Source: an uncultured Lachnospiraceae bacterium (lineage in GTDB: Bacteria; Bacillota; Clostridia; Lachnospirales; Lachnospiraceae). Taken from it: a stretch of DNA of 43,716 nucleotides. The position numbers were made by a program, and so were the translations under genes. The stretch spans positions 1 through 43,716 of the forward strand of contig CAMOGQ010000011.1 in the NCBI GenBank assembly GCA_946614165.1, written 5' to 3'. Below, in pieces: positions 1-34,710 of this stretch. Position 1 is the stretch's first letter. The number at the start of each line of letters is the position of its first letter. Under the pieces are notes generated by a model. It was not told where the DNA came from. It did not search any database and saw only the letters and a program-made list of their open reading frames with translations.

Positions 1-580
1 CGAGGGCGACGGCGCCTTCTACGGTCCCAAGATCGACCTGCAGATCAAGGACGCCATTGGAAGAGAGTGGCAGTGCGGCACCATCCAGCTGGACTTCCAG
101 CTGCCTCACAACTTCGGCCTGACCTATCAGGACGCCGACGGAACACTGAAGCAGCCCGTCGTTATCCACAGGGCCATCTTCGGATCCCTGGAGAGATTCA
201 TCGGCATCCTGATCGAGAACTACAAGGGCGCCTTCCCCTTCTGGCTCAGCCCTTACCAGGTGGCCATCGTTCCCATCCGCACAGAGCACAACGCCTATGC
301 GGAAAAGATCTATAAGGACCTGGAAAACATGGGCCTTCGCGTGGAGGCTGACTATTCCGACAAGAACATGAATACCAAGATCAAGAACTTCAAGCTTATG
401 AAGGATCCCTACATCGTGGTAGTCGGCGACAAGGAAGCCGAGGAAGGCACTGTCTCCATCAATGTCCGCGGCCAGAAGAACCAGATGCGGAATGTGCCTC
501 TGGACAAGTTCTACGCCATGTGCCGGAAGATGAACGAAGAGCATATGCAGGAGCTGATCGCATCCGCCGACCAGATCTGA
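1..580 (+). CDS. thrS: Threonyl-tRNA synthetase, C-terminal part (5' truncated by window edge)
   Basis: Charges tRNA-Thr with threonine in the cytosol. The open frame runs from base 2 without a start, so only the last ~192 residues are present. Visible are the end of the class II catalytic core (GDGAFYGPKID, GREWQCGTIQLDF) and the motif 3 region HRAIFGSLERFIGILIE, whose Arg contacts ATP. The C-terminal anticodon-binding domain begins near FWLSPYQVAIVPI and ends at base 580. All motifs match the family closely and the end is at the usual place. Two hairpins follow directly, so this is probably the last gene of its transcript. The N-terminal TGS and editing domains lie outside the window and cannot be judged. 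Confidence 0.97.
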   Translation, partial: EGDGAFYGPKIDLQIKDAIGREWQCGTIQLDFQLPHNFGLTYQDADGTLKQPVVIHRAIFGSLERFIGILIENYKGAFPFWLSPYQVAIVPIRTEHNAYAEKIYKDLENMGLRVEADYSDKNMNTKIKNFKLMKDPYIVVVGDKEAEEGTVSINVRGQKNQMRNVPLDKFYAMCRKMNEEHMQELIASADQI

Positions 581-590
581 ACACAGAAAT

Positions 591-642
591 GAGGCCTTTG
601 GCCTCCCTGAAAGAAAGCAGCTGCAGATTTGCGGCTGCTTTC
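591..642 (+). terminator. Tandem hairpins after thrS
   Basis: Two inverted repeats follow the thrS stop: GAGGCC-TTT-GGCCTC at 591-605, and a 9-bp perfect stem GAAAGCAGC/GCTGCTTTC at 613-621 and 634-642 followed by the mixed tract TCTTAT. The second is the better terminator candidate, but its T-tract is poor. Confidence 0.6.
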
Positions 643-887
643 TCTTATGAGATGAAGATCATTTTCCGGTCCTGTCTGACATTTTTGGCGGGTGTTGTCT
701 TTTTGCTGTAAATTGCCTTTAAAATGGCGTATTAATTTGTTACAAAAGTATTTAGCTTTTTTTGTACATATATTATAATCTAATAATGTGGTGGCCTGCG
801 TGCTGTCACAGGGCTCTTTATGGGCCTTTGGAGCGGCTTTGCAGCCGCCCCGCAGCAGCAAAGCACATGACCCGGAGGGTTAAAATC
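643..887 (+). promoter_or_regulatory. Gene-free stretch with probable promoter of the barnase operon
   Basis: No convincing gene lies between the thrS terminator and 888. A perfect -10 TATAAT is at 774-779. The -35 position at 17-bp spacing (751-756, TTTAGC) is poor, so the promoter is only moderately supported. The predicted leader is about 100 nt. An ATG at 762 is in frame with the downstream gene but lies upstream of the -10 and has no ribosome binding site. Confidence 0.45.
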
Positions 888-1457
888 ATGAACATCAGAA
901 AACTCATTCTCCCTGTTCTGGCCGGCATTATGACATGGGCCATTTCCCTTTCGGGATGCGGCGGCCCTGAGCCTGTCCAGGAGAGCGTTCATCTGGAAAT
1001 AACGGACGCAGAGCCCGAAGAAGAGGTGCAGGAGAATATACCGGAAGCCGGACAGGAAGAGGACCCCTCGCCGGAGGAAGAGCCCGTCATCGAAGTCCTG
1101 GAAAGCACGGACCAGATCGATTATGACGGCGTCTATACCACAAAGGAGGACGTGGGCCTCTACCTTTATACCTACGGGGAGCTTCCTTCCAATTTCATGA
1201 CCAAGAAGGAGGCCAGGGCCCTGGGCTGGCAGGGCGGTTCTCTGGAAGAATACGCACCCGGCTTCTGCATCGGGGGAGATTATTTCGGCAACAACGAAGG
1301 CATCCTTCCCGAGGGCAGCTATCATGAATGCGACATAGACACCCTGTACTCGAAAAAGGGAAGGGGCGCAAAGCGCATAGTCTATTCCGATGACGGCAGG
1401 ATCTACTATACGGAAGACCATTATGAGACCTTCGAGCTTCTGTACGGCAAAGAGTGA
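888..1457 (+). CDS. Lipoprotein-anchored barnase-family ribonuclease
   Basis: Predicted guanyl-specific extracellular RNase of the barnase (microbial N1/T1) family, tethered to the outer face of the membrane. The 189-residue product starts at ATG 888, behind GGAGGG at 874. Residues 1-24 form a lipoprotein signal ending in the lipobox LSGC, with Cys24 as lipidation site. Residues 27-75 are a Glu/Pro-rich linker. The RNase domain spans about 80-189. Barnase catalytic residues can be matched by motif: Lys106 (MTKKEARALGW), Glu147 (HECDID), Arg159 and Arg163 (GRGAKRIVYS) and His178 (EDHYETF), so the enzyme should be active. A barstar gene follows 19 bases later. Known barnases are freely secreted; the lipid anchor is the odd feature. 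The fold and anchor are read from the sequence; a role as toxin or as surface nuclease is inference. Confidence 0.92.
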   Translation: MNIRKLILPVLAGIMTWAISLSGCGGPEPVQESVHLEITDAEPEEEVQENIPEAGQEEDPSPEEEPVIEVLESTDQIDYDGVYTTKEDVGLYLYTYGELPSNFMTKKEARALGWQGGSLEEYAPGFCIGGDYFGNNEGILPEGSYHECDIDTLYSKKGRGAKRIVYSDDGRIYYTEDHYETFELLYGKE

Positions 1458-1476
1458 TCAGGAAAGGACTTAAGTC

Positions 1477-1776
1477 ATGGAAGAAAACAGAGAGAGGGAA
1501 GGCCGTAACATTTATATCATAGATCTGAGTGACGTCAGCGACAGAAAAGGCCTGCATGACAGGATCCAGGAGGTGCTGCCCCTGCCGGACTATTACGGCA
1601 GAAATCTGGATGCCCTCTATGATGCCCTGACCGAGTTCGGAAACGGCTGGGACGTCAGGTTCACAGGCTGCGGTCTGATCCGCGAGTGCCTGCCGGCCTA
1701 TATGGATGCTCTCGGAAGGCTCTGCAGACAGGCCCGGGAGGAAATGGAGAATCTGACCGTTACCTTTGAGGACTGA
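1477..1776 (+). CDS. Barstar-family ribonuclease inhibitor
   Basis: A 99-residue cytosolic protein of the barstar family, the tight inhibitor of barnase. The family core LPDYYGRNLDALYDALTEF (residues 36-54) is clear; its Tyr-Tyr-Gly, Asn-Leu-Asp and acidic residues correspond to the helix that plugs the barnase active site. The start at ATG 1477 follows GGAAAGG at 1461-1467. It has no signal peptide. It sits immediately after the RNase gene, in the classic effector-immunity order, and is very probably co-transcribed with it. It would protect the cell from RNase that stays in or re-enters the cytosol. Confidence 0.93.
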   Translation: MEENREREGRNIYIIDLSDVSDRKGLHDRIQEVLPLPDYYGRNLDALYDALTEFGNGWDVRFTGCGLIRECLPAYMDALGRLCRQAREEMENLTVTFED

Positions 1777-1796
1777 AGGTCCGGAAGGAAGAAGAT

Positions 1797-2507
1797 ATGA
1801 GCACAGACCGCAGAATACTGATCATAACAGATATTCACGGCTGCCTGGACGAATGCCAAAAGCTCCTGGCAGCCCTACGGTTCAATGAGGAAGAGGATAC
1901 CCTGATCAACCTGGGGGATACCATCGACAGAGGGCCCCAGATCTACGAGACCTTTGAATTTCTCTACGGGCTGAAGGAAAGAATGGGCGACAGGCTGGTC
2001 CTGATCAGGGGAAACCATGAGCAGATGATGCTGGACGCCACCGACAAAAACGACCCCGACCGGAAAAGCTGCAAAGACCTCTGGTATATGAACAGCGGAG
2101 AGAAGACCGTCTACTCCTTCGTGAACCACAAGCATAAGATCCAGGAATACAGAGAATGGTATGAAAGCATGCCCTTCTATTACCAGAACGACAGATTTAT
2201 CTGCGTCCACGCTTCCCTGACGGACGAGGATCCCGGGAAGAACACGGCGGAGACCATGATCTGGGGAAGGGATACTTCCTACGGCGGCAAGCTGGTCATG
2301 ACGGGACATACGCCCTATAAATCCCCCATGTATTTCAGGGGAGACGGAGCCTATGCGGTCCTGGAGACCGGAAAGAAATACTACCTGGAGAAAACCGGGA
2401 TGATTGCGCTTGACACAGGCTGTGTCTTTGGATATTCTCTGACGGGAATGGCCATTGAAGGCGACCTGTTTTATCTTGAAAGCATCAAATCAAACGTTAA
2501 AAAATGA
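1797..2507 (+). CDS. PPP-family metallophosphoesterase (serine/threonine phosphatase or ApaH/PrpE-like)
   Basis: A 236-residue cytosolic phosphoesterase with the complete calcineurin-like metal-site set: DIHG (residues 12-15), GDTIDRG (about 41-47), RGNHE (about 75-79), a further His in CVHASL and GHTPY near residue 172. These bind two divalent metals. The length and motif order fit PPP-type protein phosphatases and the related dinucleotide-polyphosphate hydrolases; the sequence alone does not choose between them. It starts at ATG 1797 after GGAAGGAAG and lies 20 bases behind the barstar gene, then 13 bases ahead of a secreted wall hydrolase. Its substrate is unknown. Confidence 0.88.
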   Translation: MSTDRRILIITDIHGCLDECQKLLAALRFNEEEDTLINLGDTIDRGPQIYETFEFLYGLKERMGDRLVLIRGNHEQMMLDATDKNDPDRKSCKDLWYMNSGEKTVYSFVNHKHKIQEYREWYESMPFYYQNDRFICVHASLTDEDPGKNTAETMIWGRDTSYGGKLVMTGHTPYKSPMYFRGDGAYAVLETGKKYYLEKTGMIALDTGCVFGYSLTGMAIEGDLFYLESIKSNVKK

Positions 2508-2520
2508 AGGGAGCAGACAT

Positions 2521-3339
2521 TTGAGTTATTTAAGAAGAGTGTTCATGATGCTGATGATCGCTGTGATGGCTGCAGCAATGATTCCCCAGGGAGCCGCGGC
2601 TGCCCAGACCGCTGAAGAAGAGACGGATACCGGCGAAGCTTCCTCCTATGAGGTGCCAGCCACCGGCAAGCACGGTTTCAGGACCATCAAGGGCAAGCGC
2701 TACTATTATAAGAAGAACGGCAAGCTGGCCACCGGCTGGACGAAGATCTACAACAATCTCTACTACATGGGCAAGGACGGTGTCGTCCGGACCGGATGGA
2801 AAAAGATCAGCGGAAACGACTGCTATTTCAATTTCCGCGGCAGACTGGTCTTTAAGGGAACCAAAACGGATGCCAAGGCACAGCAGCTGCAGTTCATCGA
2901 AACGATCGCCCAGGGCATCAATAAGCACGCTGATAAATATCATATCTGCTGCTATTCGGGCGTGATCGGCCAGGCCATTCTGGAATCCGGCTGGGGCAGG
3001 TCCGTTCTTGCCAGCAGATACAACAATTATTTCGGACTCAAGTGCGGCAGCTCCTGGAAGGGCAGAAGCGTCAATTTAAAGACCATGGAGGAATACTCCG
3101 CAGGCAAGACTTCGGTGGTCTTTGACTATTTCAGGGTCTATAAGACGCCCGCTGCCGGCATCAAGGGATTCTTTGAATTCATCGATACGCCCAGATACGC
3201 AAATCTCAAGAATGTCAAGGATCCCGACCGCTATCTGGATCTTGTCAAGAAGGACGGTTATGCCACATCCAGCTCCTACGTGAGCGTTGTGTCCAGCATC
3301 ATCCGCTACAACAACCTGAAAGCGTATGACCCCTATTGA
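2521..3339 (+). CDS. Secreted GH73-like N-acetylglucosaminidase with wall-binding repeats
   Basis: Predicted peptidoglycan hydrolase. The best start is TTG 2521, 7 bases after AGGGAG (2508-2513); the in-frame ATG at 2455 lies inside the upstream gene. The 272-residue product has a signal peptide (about 1-28, rich in Met/Ala, ending near AAAA), then aromatic glucan/choline-binding-type repeats (about 52-110: GKRYYYKKNGKLATGW, NLYYMGKDGVVRTGW, NDCYFNFRGRLVF). A glucosaminidase domain fills 118-268, with AILESGWG giving Glu155 as likely catalytic acid and SRYNNYFGLK typical of the family. It should cleave the GlcNAc-MurNAc backbone during growth or separation. The order, binding repeats before the catalytic domain, is common in Clostridia. 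Confidence 0.9.
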   Translation: MSYLRRVFMMLMIAVMAAAMIPQGAAAAQTAEEETDTGEASSYEVPATGKHGFRTIKGKRYYYKKNGKLATGWTKIYNNLYYMGKDGVVRTGWKKISGNDCYFNFRGRLVFKGTKTDAKAQQLQFIETIAQGINKHADKYHICCYSGVIGQAILESGWGRSVLASRYNNYFGLKCGSSWKGRSVNLKTMEEYSAGKTSVVFDYFRVYKTPAAGIKGFFEFIDTPRYANLKNVKDPDRYLDLVKKDGYATSSSYVSVVSSIIRYNNLKAYDPY

Positions 3340-3410
3340 ATTCGGAGCGGAAAAAGAGTATCTTATAAAAGATATTTGACAACATACATTTTTGAATCGG
3401 ACGTTAACTT

Positions 3411-4904
3411 ATGAATCATAATGAAAAGAATGGGACAAATTATGTCCTGCTGGGACTGCGGATCGCCCTCCCGGTAATACAGCTGATCCTTTCTGCGGCA
3501 TTTGTGTTTTACGTATGGCAGACACAAATGATTCCGGACAGGTATGTCGTGGCGGCCGGCTGTGTATTGGCCATCCTGCTGATCTTTACCGTGGCAGTCT
3601 CTTCCATGAAAAACCGTTTCTGGGGGATTGGAACGGTTCTGTGTCTTGTGATGTGCATCCTCTTGGGAGGAGCCTACTTTTACGTGAACAAGGCCCTGAA
3701 CCTGCTGGAGCAGTCCAGGCAGACCTACAATACCAGTGACATGATCGTCATGGTCAGGGAAGACAGCAAAGCCGAGAACCTTTATGACGCCGCCGACTAT
3801 CTCTTCGGCGTTCAGACAGGCGTGGACAGGGAGAATACGGAACTCATGCTGGAGGATATCCGCAAGGAACTGGGCGAGGAAATCCAGGTCCGTGAGTATC
3901 CCACCCTTCTGGATATGGCCCAGGCCCTTCTGCAGGGCGAAGTGGGGGCTGTCGTCTACAACAATTCCTACTACGGACTGATCGCCGACGCAGTGGAGAA
4001 CTTTGAGGAAAAGTCCAGGGAGATCTATCGTTACGGAATCCATACCGAACTGACTGTGGAAGAAGTGGAAGTGGGAGAGCCCTTCAATATCCTTCTTTCC
4101 GGTGTCGATACCAGAAACGAACAGATCGAGAACAGTCTGAGCGACGTCAACATCATCGCCACCATCAATCCCAAGACCAAAAAGGTCATTCTGACCACCA
4201 CGCCCCGTGACTATTACGTGACCCTTCCCGGAATTTCCGGTACCCAGAGGGATAAGCTGACCCATGCCGGCATTTACGGCGTGGAGGCCTCCAAGGCGGC
4301 CATCGAGAACCTTTACAACATCGACATTTCCTATTATGTCAGGGTGAACTTCAACACCACCTGGAGAGTCGTGGACGCTCTGGGAGGCCTGGATCTCTAC
4401 GTGGAGAAGGACTTCATTCCCTTTACGGACAGCGAGATCTCTTTCCAGAAGGGATGGACCCACCTGGACGGCCGTCACGTTCTGGCCTATGTACGTGAGC
4501 GCTACGCTTTCGACGACGGCGACAATGCCCGCGGAAGGAACCAGGAGATCGTCCTGTCGGCTCTGATCGACAAGGCCATGTCCCCTGCCATCATTACCAA
4601 CGCCAATCAGCTGCTGAACAAGCTGGCAGGCACCTTTGAGACGGATCTTCCGGATGAAAAGATCTCCGAGCTGATCAACCAGCAGCTGATGGATTCCACT
4701 CCCTGGAAGGTCTACAGACAGGGCGCCGGCGTGGGAACGGGCGATTCGCAGCCTACCTATTCCGGAGGCTCGCAGCCTCTCTACGTCACCTGGCCCGACT
4801 ACGAAAGCTGCAGACGGTGTTCCGCAAGGATCCGTATGATCTTCGACGAACGTCCCGAGAAGGATGAGGCGGAGACGGGCGATGAGGAAAACGCCGTTAA
4901 ATAA
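3411..4904 (+). CDS. LytR-CpsA-Psr (LCP) family wall-polymer ligase
   Basis: LCP enzymes move teichoic acids or capsular polymers from the undecaprenyl lipid to peptidoglycan. The 497-residue protein has three hydrophobic segments near the N-terminus (about 13-36, 44-64, 70-90), an extracytoplasmic accessory region (about 95-215) and the LCP domain from about 225. The domain shows LLSGVDTR, DVNIIATINPKTKK, TTPRDYYV, DKLTHAGIYG, GGLDLYVEKDF, HLDGRHVLAYVRER and NARGRNQE, including the Arg residues that bind the lipid phosphate. The ATG at 3411 has no clear ribosome binding site. It follows the GH73-like gene, so the two may be made together during wall growth. A strong terminator ends the run. 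Confidence 0.92.
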   Translation: MNHNEKNGTNYVLLGLRIALPVIQLILSAAFVFYVWQTQMIPDRYVVAAGCVLAILLIFTVAVSSMKNRFWGIGTVLCLVMCILLGGAYFYVNKALNLLEQSRQTYNTSDMIVMVREDSKAENLYDAADYLFGVQTGVDRENTELMLEDIRKELGEEIQVREYPTLLDMAQALLQGEVGAVVYNNSYYGLIADAVENFEEKSREIYRYGIHTELTVEEVEVGEPFNILLSGVDTRNEQIENSLSDVNIIATINPKTKKVILTTTPRDYYVTLPGISGTQRDKLTHAGIYGVEASKAAIENLYNIDISYYVRVNFNTTWRVVDALGGLDLYVEKDFIPFTDSEISFQKGWTHLDGRHVLAYVRERYAFDDGDNARGRNQEIVLSALIDKAMSPAIITNANQLLNKLAGTFETDLPDEKISELINQQLMDSTPWKVYRQGAGVGTGDSQPTYSGGSQPLYVTWPDYESCRRCSARIRMIFDERPEKDEAETGDEENAVK

Positions 4905-4918
4905 ATTGGATCAAAAAA

Positions 4919-4949
4919 ACAGATCTGCGGTGCAGGTCTGTTTTTTTTT
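4919..4949. terminator. Bidirectional rho-independent terminator after the LCP gene
   Basis: Stem ACAGATCTGC (4919-4928) pairs with GCAGGTCTGT (4932-4941) with one wobble, loop GGT, followed by nine T. Seven A precede the stem, so it can also act on the minus strand. Confidence 0.9.
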
Positions 4950-5008
4950 GCGGGTATATTCTGCGGGGATCTGAGGCCAAGTCCCGGCAGGGGCCTCGGA
5001 AAAGCATG

Positions 5009-5045
5009 AAAAAAGCCATATGCGGCGCCCTGCCGCGTATGGCTT
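5009..5045 (-). terminator. Terminator of the PAP2 gene
   Basis: A 14-bp stem (5013-5026 with 5032-5045, one wobble) with a 5-base loop. On the minus strand it is followed by six T (A 5009-5014 on the plus strand). It lies 26 bases past the PAP2 stop. Confidence 0.88.
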
Positions 5046-5070
5046 TATAAGTGTCTGTATGTACCCGGGG

Positions 5071-5787
5071 TCAGATCCTGCCGGCAGCGCGCCTGCGGAC
5101 CCTTGCAGTGGCCCTTACGGGGCTGTATACGAAGCCCAGCCTGTAGACCAGGATATAGATCATGGCGGAGAGAGCGAAGGCTACCAGCACGTCCGATACG
5201 GAATGCTGCTTGATGAACATGGTGGAGAGGATGATCAGGACGCCCTGCAGAAGCAGAAGACCTTTCACGATCCTGGACCGTTTCATAAATTCCGTATTGG
5301 TATGGACCACAGCGATCATAATGCCTATGGAGTTATATACGTGGATGCTGGGCGTCAGGTTAGTAGGCGTATCGCTGCTGTAGATCATCTGCACCAGGTC
5401 GGTGAAGATGTTCTGTCTGGGCATGACCTCCGGCCTGAGAAAGTGTATGTTGGGGAAAACGATGGAAATGAACAGGAAAGCGCCCATTCCGATGGCCAGA
5501 TAAGTGGCTGTCTTATGATAGTTTTCCTCATCCGCGATCAGAAGATACACGGTATACAATGCAACATAGAAAAACCAGGCAAGGTAGGGGAGTATAAATA
5601 TTTCGCAGAAGGGGATCACGTCATCTGCCGCCATATGGATGACGGTAAAGTGAAGCCGGTTCCATCTTTCGATCAGAAAGAAGATGGCAAGATAGCCTGC
5701 TGTAAAGACCATCATCGGGACTGCAGTCCTGATTCTGGGACTGATCACATCCTTCCATACACGGGCATGCTCGGAATGTGTATTCAT
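5071..5787 (-). CDS. PAP2-family membrane phosphatase
   Basis: A 238-residue integral membrane protein of the PAP2 (phosphatidic acid phosphatase type 2) superfamily, which dephosphorylates lipids such as phosphatidate or undecaprenyl pyrophosphate. About six hydrophobic helices are visible. Motif 2 is PSIH (146-149) and motif 3 is HSVSD (His195, Asp199); motif 1 appears only as a reduced LRPE at 117-120. The start ATG at 5787 follows GAGGT on the minus strand. It is a single-gene transcript convergent with the surface operon. The substrate is not determined; undecaprenyl-phosphate recycling would fit the neighbouring wall genes but is inference. Confidence 0.85.
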   Translation of the reverse strand: MNTHSEHARVWKDVISPRIRTAVPMMVFTAGYLAIFFLIERWNRLHFTVIHMAADDVIPFCEIFILPYLAWFFYVALYTVYLLIADEENYHKTATYLAIGMGAFLFISIVFPNIHFLRPEVMPRQNIFTDLVQMIYSSDTPTNLTPSIHVYNSIGIMIAVVHTNTEFMKRSRIVKGLLLLQGVLIILSTMFIKQHSVSDVLVAFALSAMIYILVYRLGFVYSPVRATARVRRRAAGRI

Positions 5788-5843
5788 TTTTTACCTCATA
5801 TAACAGTTTTGGGGTGACGATCAGTTATCAATTGTCTTTATAT

Positions 5844-5872
5844 TTTATACAACTCCTTTTCTTTTCTTTCAA
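5844..5872 (-). promoter_or_regulatory. Promoter of the PAP2 gene
   Basis: On the minus strand TTGAAA (5872-5867) and TATAAA (5849-5844) are 17 bp apart, about 57 bases upstream of the PAP2 start. Confidence 0.65.
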
Positions 5873-6036
5873 TAGGCCCTTTTTGTTAATCTGTATCTAA
5901 TTTCGTACAATATGCTTTGCCCTCATGCAGAGAGGCTTTCCCCCAAAAGCCGGAGAGGCCTTAAATTTTCCGAGATTATGGTAATTCTGACGTAAATCAA
6001 CAGTTATAAGGCGGATTTGTATATAAATATAGGTTA

Positions 6037-6065
6037 TTGCATAAATGGGACCCTTTTGCTATACT
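6037..6065 (+). promoter_or_regulatory. glyA promoter
   Basis: TTGCAT (6037-6042), 17-bp spacer, TATACT (6060-6065), with an extended -10 TG at 6057-6058. Predicted transcript start is near 6072. Confidence 0.85.
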
Positions 6066-6132
6066 CTGAAAAGTGCGTATAACAGATTATGCATCTATCA
6101 AGTCATCAATACCGAAGCACAGGAGGATAAGA

Positions 6133-7371
6133 ATGTATTCACTTGATGAAGTAAAGAGGACAGATCCCGAAATCGCAGCAGCTATCGAGCAGGAGATCCA
6201 GAGACAGAACGACCATATCGAACTGATCGCTTCCGAGAACTGGGTCAGCAAGGCTGTTATGGCTGCTATGGGCAGCCCCCTTACCAATAAATATGCGGAA
6301 GGCTATTCCGGCAAGCGCTACTACGGCGGATGCAAGGTCATCGATGTGATCGAAACACTTGCCATCGAACGTGCCAAAGAGCTTTTCTGCTGTGAGTATG
6401 CCAACGTACAGCCTCATTCCGGCGCTTCCGCAAACCTGGCCGTGGAATTCGCCATCTTAAAGCCCGGCGATACCCTGATGGGCATGAACCTGAACCAGGG
6501 CGGTCACCTGACCCATGGCAGCAGCGCCAATATTTCCGGCACCTACTTCAACATTGTTCCCTACGGCGTTGATGAGAACGGTTTTATCGACTACGACGAG
6601 CTGAAGAGACTGGCCATCGAGCATAAGCCCAAACTGATCATTGCCGGCGCTTCCGCCTATGCCAGGACCATCGACTTTAAAAAGTTCCGTGAAGCGGCAG
6701 ATGCCTGCGGCGCGGTCCTGATGGCAGACATCGCCCATATCGCAGGTCTGGTGGCAGCCGGACTCCATCCCAGTCCCTTCCCCTATGCGGACGTGGTCAC
6801 CACTACTACCCACAAGACTCTGCGCGGCCCCAGAGGCGGCATGATCCTTTCCAATGCAGAGACCGCAAAGAAGTACAACTTCAACAAAGCAGTCTTCCCC
6901 GGCACCCAGGGCGGCCCTCTGGAGCATGTCATCGCGGCCAAGGCTGTCTGCTTCAAGGAAGCACTGGATCCTTCCTTCAAAGTCTATCAGCAGAATATCC
7001 TGGACAATGCCCAGGCCCTCTGCAAAGGACTGCAGAAGAGGGGCATCGAGATCGTTTCCGGCGGTACCGACAACCATCTGATGCTGATCGACCTGACAAA
7101 GCAGGATCTGACCGGCAAGGAAGTGGAAAAGTGGCTGGATGAAGCCCACATCACCGCCAACAAGAATACTATCCCCAACGAGACCAGATCTCCCTTCGTC
7201 ACCAGCGGCATCCGTCTGGGTACGCCCGCTGCGACTTCCCGCGGCCTGAACGCGGAAGACTTTGACGAAGTGGCAGAAGCCATCGCTCTGGTCATCAACA
7301 AAAAGGAAGAGGGAATCGTGCCTGCCCGCGAGATCATTGCCGGCATCACAGCCAAATATCCTCTGATCTGA
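6133..7371 (+). CDS. glyA: Serine hydroxymethyltransferase
   Basis: A PLP enzyme that converts serine and tetrahydrofolate to glycine and 5,10-methylene-tetrahydrofolate, feeding one-carbon units to purine, thymidylate and methionine synthesis. The start ATG 6133 lies behind AGGAGG (6121-6126); an in-frame ATG at 6073 sits almost at the predicted transcript start and is less likely. The 412-residue length is normal. Recognisable are [11 protein letters not shown] near residue 40, [13 protein letters not shown], the PLP lysine in [14 protein letters not shown], and the C-terminal [22 protein letters not shown]. It is a single-gene unit with its own promoter and terminator. Confidence 0.98.
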
Positions 7372-7386
7372 TGAATGCAATTGAAG

Positions 7387-7414
7387 GCGCCCGGAATGAT
7401 CCGGGCGCTTTCTT
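7387..7414 (+). terminator. glyA terminator
   Basis: GCGCCCGG (7387-7394) pairs with CCGGGCGC (7401-7408), 6-base loop, followed by TTTCTT. Confidence 0.88.
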
Positions 7415-7470
7415 CGTGAGAGAGCCTCCAGCTGAAGGCCCAGGCCGGACGATAAATTGTGTGATATTTG

Positions 7471-7519
7471 AATGAAATAATAGGTAATTGTGTATATAAG
7501 ACTGAAATAACAGATAATT
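7471..7519. repeat. Paired imperfect direct repeats, 30 bases apart
   Basis: Copies at 7471-7489 and 7501-7519 match at 16 of 19 positions, with shared core TGAAATAAYAGRTAATT. They start exactly 30 bases apart, about three helical turns, and end 22 bases before the -35 at 7542. The geometry suggests an operator pair; no regulator is identified. Confidence 0.55.
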
Positions 7520-7541
7520 TAAATATTTAACCATAAATTTA

Positions 7542-7570
7542 TTGACAAATAAGAGGCTTTATTATATAGT
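7542..7570 (+). promoter_or_regulatory. Near-consensus sigma-A promoter with no protein gene behind it
   Basis: TTGACA (7542-7547), 17-bp spacer, TATAGT (7565-7570), one mismatch in twelve. Predicted transcript start is about 7577. It faces a region with no credible reading frame. Confidence 0.85.
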
Positions 7571-7576
7571 ATTCTC

Positions 7577-8058
7577 AACAGAAGAGAAGATCTTCTGAAT
7601 ATATCCAAGAAAGGAAGGTAAACTCCACATCATTACAAACTTTACAATTTCTTCCGTTACAAAGGCTGTATCGATTTAAGTACACTTAAATGTGATGAAG
7701 ATCCTGTAAATTTCAGTTATATCTAAATTGAAAATCTGATGATGGCAACTCAGAATAAAAATAATGAAAGTACCGTATAAGAATTCAGATCAGGTATAAT
7801 ACATAAGAAATTTTACATGGACACCACAATACAATCAGTATAAAAAAAGACGTGGAAAGAAAAGATCCGGCATAGACAAAGCAGAAGAGAAGAAAGGTTC
7901 GGAGGTAAACAAACCATTGGATAACGTAAATTAGGAAAGGGTATTAGTCGAGATGATTGATACCCTTTCCGTATGTCCGGAAACAGGAAAGATGTATGAA
8001 AAGCATGAAAGAAAAATAACGCAGCAGTCCGGGATTCCAGACTGCTGCGTATTTTTTT
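7577..8058 (+). ncRNA. Candidate non-coding transcript (promoter to terminator, no ORF)
   Basis: A promoter close to consensus (7542-7570) and a strong terminator (8019-8058) enclose about 480 bases that are far more AT-rich than the neighbouring genes and have stops in all plus-strand frames. Only peptides of a dozen or so codons without ribosome binding sites can be drawn before 7950. One good Shine-Dalgarno (GGAGGT at 7901) is followed only by a five-codon frame. A perfect 11-bp inverted repeat (GGAAAGGGTAT at 7934-7944 with 7960-7970) lies near the 3' end. A 71-codon frame starting at 7953 runs through the terminator into the antisense of the next gene and is not believed. No match to RNase P, tmRNA, SRP or 6S RNA was recognised. 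An unrecognised RNA, a long leader or decayed sequence are all possible. Confidence 0.45.
8019..8058. terminator. Bidirectional terminator shared with the activase gene
   Basis: An 11-bp perfect stem (8019-8029 with 8040-8050). Seven T at 8052-8058 serve the plus strand; five A at 8014-8018 serve the minus strand, where the 8072-12316 gene ends. Confidence 0.88.
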
Positions 8059-33882: not shown

Positions 33883-34710
33883 ATGAGAAAAGAACTCGGA
33901 CTTGCCCAGATCAAAGAAACAGAGTTTTCCCTGCTCTGCGCCTTTGATGATTTCTGCAGAGAAAACGGGCTTTATTATACACTGTGCGGAGGCACTCTTC
34001 TGGGAGCGGTCCGCCACAAAGGCTTCATCCCCTGGGACGACGACATCGATGTCTTCATGCCCAGGCCCGATTATGACAGGATCCTGGAGGGAAAGGATCT
34101 GAAGACAGAAGGCCTTCCTTCTTATATGAAGATCGTCAGCTGGAGGACCGGAGAATCCATTTATCCCTTCATCAAGCTGGTGGATACCAGGACATACCTG
34201 GATAAGAAATATACGGACGCCGGCGAAAAGGCGGAGCATATCTGGATCGATATCTTCCCCGTGGACGGCCTGCCCGAAACAAGAAGCGAAGTGGAAAAGC
34301 TCTATAAGAAGGTGATCTTCCACAGAAAGCTGATCCTTCTCAAGTACGCCAAGTCCGGAGAAGGAAAGACGGCCCTGAAAAAGGCACTGAAGCCCCTGAT
34401 CAAACCCTTCATTTCCCTCATGGATCCCGTAAAAATGTGCGAGAACCTCAATAAGGAATCCAATGTAAGGGACTTTAACGCCAGCCCCCATGTGGGAGGC
34501 GTCCTCTGGGGCTACGGCCCTCAGGAGAGGATGGACAAAGCTTCCTTTTTAAAGAGCACGCCCGTGGAGTTCGAGGGCAGGACCTTCCCTGCTCCCTCCA
34601 ACTACCATGAATATCTGACAGGGCTCTATAAGGACTACATGCAGCTTCCGCCGGAGGACCAGCGGATGACCCACGATATGACAGCTTATCTTGAAGAAGA
34701 AGGAGACTGA
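33883..34710 (+). CDS. LicD-family phosphotransferase
   Basis: A 275-residue member of the LicD family, a nucleotidyltransferase-fold group that transfers phosphocholine or other phospho-polyols to surface glycans. The family core is clear: YTLCGGTLLGAVRHKGFIPWDDDIDVFMPR (about residues 28-57), in which GGTLLG and the DDDID cluster form the metal and nucleotide site, followed by WIDIFPVDGLP near 123. Start ATG 33883 follows AGAAAGG. It is 5 bases ahead of a galactofuranosyltransferase-like gene, so both probably modify one wall or capsular polymer. The group transferred is unknown. Confidence 0.9.
   Translation: MRKELGLAQIKETEFSLLCAFDDFCRENGLYYTLCGGTLLGAVRHKGFIPWDDDIDVFMPRPDYDRILEGKDLKTEGLPSYMKIVSWRTGESIYPFIKLVDTRTYLDKKYTDAGEKAEHIWIDIFPVDGLPETRSEVEKLYKKVIFHRKLILLKYAKSGEGKTALKKALKPLIKPFISLMDPVKMCENLNKESNVRDFNASPHVGGVLWGYGPQERMDKASFLKSTPVEFEGRTFPAPSNYHEYLTGLYKDYMQLPPEDQRMTHDMTAYLEEEGD

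Follow-up and report, generated by a model that had tools for sequence, protein, structure and literature searches.

A barnase with a predicted lipid anchor and an adjacent barstar in an uncultured Lachnospiraceae bacterium and its relatives

In textbooks, barnase and barstar stand for the pairing of a secreted enzyme with its inhibitor. The stretch of DNA analysed here (43,716 nucleotides; hereafter the window) corresponds to contig C11 in an assembly of 288 contigs and 3.78 Mb from an uncultured Lachnospiraceae bacterium, with a genome completeness of 87.65%. It encodes a barnase with the N-terminus of a lipoprotein, followed by a barstar (Table 1). This raises the question of what a ribonuclease held on the outside of the cell would be used for and whether such an arrangement is restricted to this strain. 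A sequence-only reading of the locus had offered three answers, namely use against neighbours by contact, degradation of extracellular RNA, or defence.

Table 1 Features of the barnase-barstar locus. Positions refer to the window; E-values are from profile searches.
Feature	Position	Strand	Basis
Shine-Dalgarno-like GGAGGG of the barnase gene	874..879	+	Read directly; its end lies 8 nt ahead of the ATG
Lipobox barnase gene, 189 aa	888..1457 (stop 1455-1457)	+	PF00545, E 4.4e-16
Predicted type II signal peptide, residues 1-23	888..956	+	Strict Gram-positive lipobox pattern
Lipobox LSGC, residues 21-24	948..959	+	Sequence and pattern; Lgt/LspA in genome
Cys24, predicted to be lipidated	957-959	+	Lipobox pattern
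Acidic low-complexity linker, 55 aa, net charge -20	960..1124	+	
Barnase catalytic domain, residues 80-189, net charge -9	1125..1454	+	
Catalytic-domain residues Glu147 (E73) and His178 (H102); Cys127 and Cys148	within 1125..1454	+	
Shine-Dalgarno-like GGAAAGGA of the barstar gene	1461..1468	+	Read directly
Barstar gene, 99 aa	1477..1776	+	PF01337, E 5.1e-17

The start codon of the barnase gene (ATG at 888) was picked on the basis of the ribosome-binding site and the signal peptide, which has a basic N-terminus and an uncharged hydrophobic core. Together with the lipobox and the lipidation enzymes encoded in the genome (one copy of Lgt and two of LspA), these are the features of a bacterial lipoprotein, in contrast to a classical secreted barnase with a signal peptide and no membrane anchor. 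Lipoboxes were scored with what we take to be the strict Gram-positive pattern and with a looser pattern of our own, while transmembrane (TM) and cleaved N-termini were sorted by eye. The LSGC motif, to which the sequence-only reading had drawn attention, fits the strict pattern, as do 110 of 215 barnases whose N-terminus resembles a signal peptide (loci below L248). Shuffling of the N-termini yielded on average 0.25 strict fits in 215 (maximum 2 in 200 rounds), and shuffling of residues 11-30 yielded 4.3 (maximum 11), both far below the observed number. The lipobox in signal-type barnases is not a matter of chance. As a background, the 295 gene proxies taken from 400 kb of this genome included 7 that fitted the strict pattern and 74 more with another hydrophobic N-terminus.

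The C-terminal part of the protein is a barnase domain. The PF00545 match covers residues 96-184, and the solved barnase 1bse_A aligns with residues 84-183 (E 1e-22). In the numbering of what we assume to be the barnase reference sequence, K27, E60, E73, R83, R87, H102 and Y103 are all present, in agreement with the earlier claim of an intact active site; the position of R59 is occupied by Asn in the window and by Tyr in most relatives. K27, E73, R83, R87, H102 and Y103 are each kept in 68-69 of 70 lipobox barnases. The profile match and the residues E73, R83, R87 and H102 assign the protein to the barnase family, and the preserved site suggests that it would be active as an RNase.

A cysteine follows the catalytic Glu directly in 208 of 219 signal-type barnases. 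Of these 208, 107 have a further cysteine at the position of barnase S50, which never occurs without the first (counted by sequence motif, not by alignment). The window barnase contains both (Cys127 at 1266-1268, Glu147-Cys148 at 1326-1331), so that a C127-C148 disulfide may form. Neither cysteine is found in the two classical-type barnases L240 and L241. L240, obtained in the phylum draw, is a near-copy of the solved barnase 1a2p (E 5.9e-71). It lacks lipobox and linker and was scored as non-lipobox by the same rule, which supports the contrast with freely secreted classical barnases drawn earlier; no barstar was found in the approximately 1.5 kb examined beside L240 or L241. The window barnase shares the catalytic domain and the active-site residues with the classical Bacillus system (1a2p, 1b27) but differs from it in the lipobox, the 55-residue linker, the acidic domain, the cysteine after the catalytic Glu and the adjacent barstar.

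The barstar gene begins 19 nt past the barnase stop codon, just as the sequence-only reading had it, and the two genes are the single matches to PF01337 and PF00545 in profile searches of the genome. Solved barstar chains match residues 20-54 (E 3.3e-6). Asp45 and Asp49 correspond to barstar D35 and D39. In the known complex, these two aspartates sit in the barnase active site, and they are the sole invariant columns among 41 aligned barstars drawn from 132 lipobox-linked ones. No signal peptide was seen in 1477-1776. The PF01337 match, the two aspartates and the signal-less N-terminus identify a member of the barstar family, which has the inhibitor family and the key residues in common with classical barstar and would be expected to inhibit the window barnase.

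Only part of what had been said about the linker stood up. An acidic linker of roughly the estimated 50 residues is present, and its acidic fraction of 0.36 lies above the median of strict-lipobox barnases. The acidic fraction after the lipobox Cys, however, has a median of 0.22 in 100 strict-lipobox barnases versus 0.22 in 18 other lipobox proteins encoded at the loci retrieved (p 0.57), and the charge of the linker is uncorrelated with that of the domain (rho 0.07, p 0.39). For both reasons, we rejected the acidic linker as a special trait. Linker length in 72 lipobox barnases of the family has a median of 58 residues and ranges from 20 to 133.

The pair is surrounded by core genes, which in the window comprise the end of thrS, recA, rny, polA and the pyruvate kinase gene; by our reading of the list of open reading frames, a serine hydroxymethyltransferase-like ORF is probably also present. 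A mobile origin was considered and rejected, as the window barnase had no match in 50,697 phage records and matched 11 plasmid records, each with less than 60% identity. A promoter scan of 560-3450 called nothing upstream of 888, and its total number of calls equalled the shuffle level; the gap ahead of the barnase gene contains a TATAAT at 774-779, where the scan made no call. An Rfam search over 1-8000 gave no match. A calcineurin-like phosphoesterase gene (1797-2507) lies 20 nt past the barstar gene. Its closest NCBIfam models are ApaH/PrpE-like, all below the cut-off, and it has a weak PADLOC match to PDC-S10 (E 3.4e-5); it was found again in 3 of 144 clustered loci. A glucosaminidase gene with choline-binding repeats (2521-3339) also lies downstream of the pair, and the window contains a LicD-family gene (33883-34710); together they may indicate phosphocholine on the cell wall.

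To what extent related bacteria carry the same form was analysed at the level of family, class and phylum. In the family draw, PF00545 was found in 93 of 397 genomes. The 98 family sequences, four of which stem from the class draw and which do not include the window itself, comprise 51 with a strict lipobox, 21 with a loose one, 20 with another hydrophobic N-terminus and 6 with none. The lipobox share accordingly depends on the rule applied (strict alone 51/98; strict and loose 72/98; an earlier rule 70/95). After removal of L051 and L089, 90 signal-bearing family sequences were scored as 71 lipobox, 13 TM-looking and 6 cleaved-looking, and 5 more were signal-less. The class draw revealed the domain in 57 of 391 genomes, some of them in the window's own family; outside the window's family and order (n=54), 17 sequences carry a lipobox, 14 another hydrophobic N-terminus and 23 are signal-less, one of the latter (L204) being cut by a contig end. 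In the phylum draw the domain was present in 19 of 398 genomes, and 7 of the 18 sequences scored have a lipobox and 11 another hydrophobic N-terminus. A collection of named sequences contained at least 581 confirmed relatives; the 80 that most resembled an alignment of 23 lipobox barnases were retained. A lipobox occurs in 74 of these 80, which is no estimate of frequency since the set was chosen by similarity. Many titles among the best 80 of at least 581 refer to ruminant or horse gut, Lachnospiraceae, Oscillospiraceae and cultured Butyrivibrio.

The search for lipobox, barnase and barstar in succession, which had been proposed as a check, was successful: a barstar is encoded directly downstream in 64 of 72 family and 68 of 74 named lipobox sequences, and none was found within 600 nt in the remaining 8 of 72 family sequences. 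When the neighbours of 144 loci (81 named or window, 63 family) were clustered, a barstar cluster appeared in 73, which is a minimum since barstars diverge. After it came clusters of 19 loci (opposite-strand ORFs), 11, 10 and 9. Barstar is by far the commonest neighbour of these barnases. As many related bacteria carry the same form, the predicted tethered barnase is not a one-off of this strain but a widespread variant of the textbook pair. Some family members deviate in other respects. In L089, the barnase domain is split across two reading frames beside an intact barstar match, and in the secreted-looking L005, L055 and L062 the stretch that separates the signal peptide from the barnase domain resembles, by eye, an Ig-like (BIG-type) repeat.

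A quick tree of 248 sequences and 115 columns had few supported forks. L051 and L089 (truncated or split) and L204 were dropped beforehand, L207 and L239 were excluded as duplicates, L242 and L243 yielded no barnase ORF, and L181 was moved by hand from the hydrophobic to the lipid class. Lipid and TM states required at least 22 changes on this tree (35 TM sequences), and the starred branches alone force 4 changes for lipid N-termini and 3 each for TM and cleaved ones. The type of anchor therefore changed more than once. We also considered that the tether was kept while its chemistry was swapped. This was unsupported, as the 7 changes between anchored and free states for 12 free sequences are comparable to the 22 changes for 35 TM sequences; with so few free sequences, the tree indicates no firmer hold on the tether than on its chemistry. 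Signal-less barnases stand apart (2 changes).

Anchored barnase domains tend to be acidic. The median net charge of the domain is -6 in lipid-type family members (range -17 to 4) and -7 in TM-type members, with -9 in the window. It is +2 to +7 in 6 secreted copies from other families of the phylum and +3 to +6 in 5 signal-less family copies, while secreted copies inside the family have a median of -1.5 (range -13 to 0). Four genomes of the phylum draw carry two barnase copies: a lipobox and a secreted-looking copy in G840 (L232, L245) and G1139 (L234, L244), a TM-looking and a secreted-looking copy in G878 (L238, L246), and two secreted-looking copies in G1080 (L240, L247). G840 and G1139 belong to another family of the phylum, and each of their copies has its own barstar, which offers a natural side-by-side comparison. 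Domain charges of the lipobox and secreted copies are -5 and +4 in G840 and -4 and +4 in G1139; the pair in G878 has +1 and +3. As an adaptation, the charge difference is inseparable from ancestry, with 3 independent pairs on supported branches, and ancestry accounts equally well for the data. Basic charge has been linked to the toxicity of RNases that enter cells (PMC4278273), so an acidic enzyme would fit a role in which it stays at home.

Taken together, we consider it reasonably probable that the pair is a surface-tethered RNase that cuts extracellular RNA at the membrane, with a cytosolic barstar for self-protection. The prebarnase would be exported, Lgt would attach a lipid to Cys24 and LspA would then cleave before this residue. 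The folded RNase would be held on the outer face of the membrane by the flexible 55-residue linker and cut extracellular RNA near the cell, while the barstar encoded by the next gene would remain in the cytosol and block any barnase that folded prior to export. The tether would most likely benefit the cell by keeping the enzyme and its cleavage products close, so that extracellular RNA is used privately and not shared. Degradation of RNA outside the cell is the simplest of the options offered earlier; the observation made in the sequence-only reading is confirmed, its interpretation partly supported. Because co-occurrence was neutral for salvage and slightly negative for LXG delivery, we consider the anatomy, a tethered RNase with barstar as safety catch in the cytosol, to be likely, whereas private use of extracellular RNA is our best guess. 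In particular, PF02872, a 5'-nucleotidase domain that could act on the products of an RNase, was present in 45 of 89 genomes with signal-type barnases and in 133 of 308 others (p 0.23); this lack of association leaves a salvage reading unconfirmed. As lipoproteins of Gram-positive bacteria can be released from the cell, the tethering may be transient.

A surface-attached nuclease has a precedent in Nuc2 of Staphylococcus aureus, which is active on the cell surface (PMC3994088). As predicted for the window barnase, it is a membrane-tethered version of a nuclease better known in secreted form (Nuc); an outward-facing catalytic domain of the window barnase is a prediction from sequence. Nuc2 differs in having an unrelated SNase domain and an N-terminal signal anchor instead of a lipid, and the accessible text of that paper mentions no inhibitor. 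Among the matches listed in a search of the open-access literature, no paper on a lipid- or membrane-anchored barnase or RNase was recognisable by title or start of abstract.

The membrane could also be a mere staging point, from which the RNase is freed by linker cleavage or in vesicles and diffuses like classical barnase. The long low-complexity linker with its very variable length would suit such a release, and a free form appears workable because six family members look directly secreted; an anchor in 84 of 90 signal-bearing family sequences, however, exceeds what a mere export signal needs, and we think this explanation unlikely.

We give still less credence to a contact weapon, in which the lipid-anchored RNase would pass to or enter touching neighbours with the barstar as immunity protein. 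The sequence-only reading had correctly stated that no delivery genes (LXG, PT or WXG100) accompany the pair, none being recognised beside it, and had proposed that the anchor might itself be the delivery mode. A lipobox, a nuclease and an adjacent inhibitor in toxin-then-immunity order are compatible with this, as are barstars that are more variable (23-54% identity to that of the window) than the barnase domains (50-78%). However, the Pfam scan of the barnase returned PF00545 only, leaving the low-complexity linker and no second domain, and the genome, within its 87.65% completeness, revealed neither WXG100 (all 22 first-look candidates scored) nor LXG (7 of 9 candidates scored). Over the 397 genomes, LXG was if anything rarer with signal-type barnases (3/89 versus 31/308, p 0.052), and neighbour clustering added nothing in favour. 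Moreover, polymorphic toxins place a variable toxin behind a constant N-terminus and depend on a delivery domain or type VII genes, whereas here the RNase domain is conserved between genera and the linker is the variable part. Exchange through outer membranes needs an outer membrane, and the window's family is monoderm. The core-gene setting likewise does not suggest a weapon. Lipoprotein nuclease toxins do exist, and the nearest one we met is SitA of myxobacteria, a lipoprotein that likewise carries its nuclease at the C-terminus and is paired with an immunity protein (PMC8546572). SitA toxins have conserved N-terminal escort domains and rely on TraAB-dependent outer membrane exchange, in contrast to the short variable linker of the window barnase. 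The polymorphic Tox-Barnase/Imm-Barstar toxins (PMC3482391) resemble the window in the order of barnase domain and barstar, but the window pair has no delivery domain and is present in a single copy. The same source describes simple barnase-barstar pairs as a possible incipient toxin-immunity order, and the lipoboxes in its accessible text concern Amoebophilus effectors and Imm65, with barnase not among them.

Defence, the third use proposed earlier, would mean an envelope barrier at which the RNase destroys foreign RNA, such as RNA phage genomes or vesicle RNA, before entry; apart from the predicted location at the membrane surface it found no backing, as neither barnase nor barstar had a PADLOC match and the setting is one of core genes, and we hold it to be highly improbable. 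An ordinary cytosolic toxin-antitoxin or phage-borne module is hardly credible given the signal peptide and lipobox, the missing phage matches and the separate tree branches of the signal-less relatives (L090-L094), even though pairs whose barnase lacks a signal peptide are also found in the class (23 of 54 sequences, most with a presumed MuF remnant). Signal-less barnases from other families of the class (L254-L276) have a barstar downstream in nearly all cases, and most carry an N-terminal Trp/Cys-rich stretch (W/CxxC/HPxCRC) that looks like a remnant of a MuF phage head protein.

A surface-tethered RNase that cuts extracellular RNA remains our preferred reading of the window pair. As a tentative extension, which we regard as possible rather than probable, a barnase tethered by lipid or TM helix could be the normal form in gut and rumen Clostridia, serving private RNA digestion as an acidic, non-invasive enzyme with barstar as safety catch, and the secreted form of Bacillus would be the special case. 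If the tethered form is usual in a large group of gut anaerobes, the role of the pair would be testable in culturable hosts; the named matches include strains of Butyrivibrio and Schaedlerella (best 80 of at least 581). RNA digestion at the cell surface would then be a trait to seek in gut and rumen communities.
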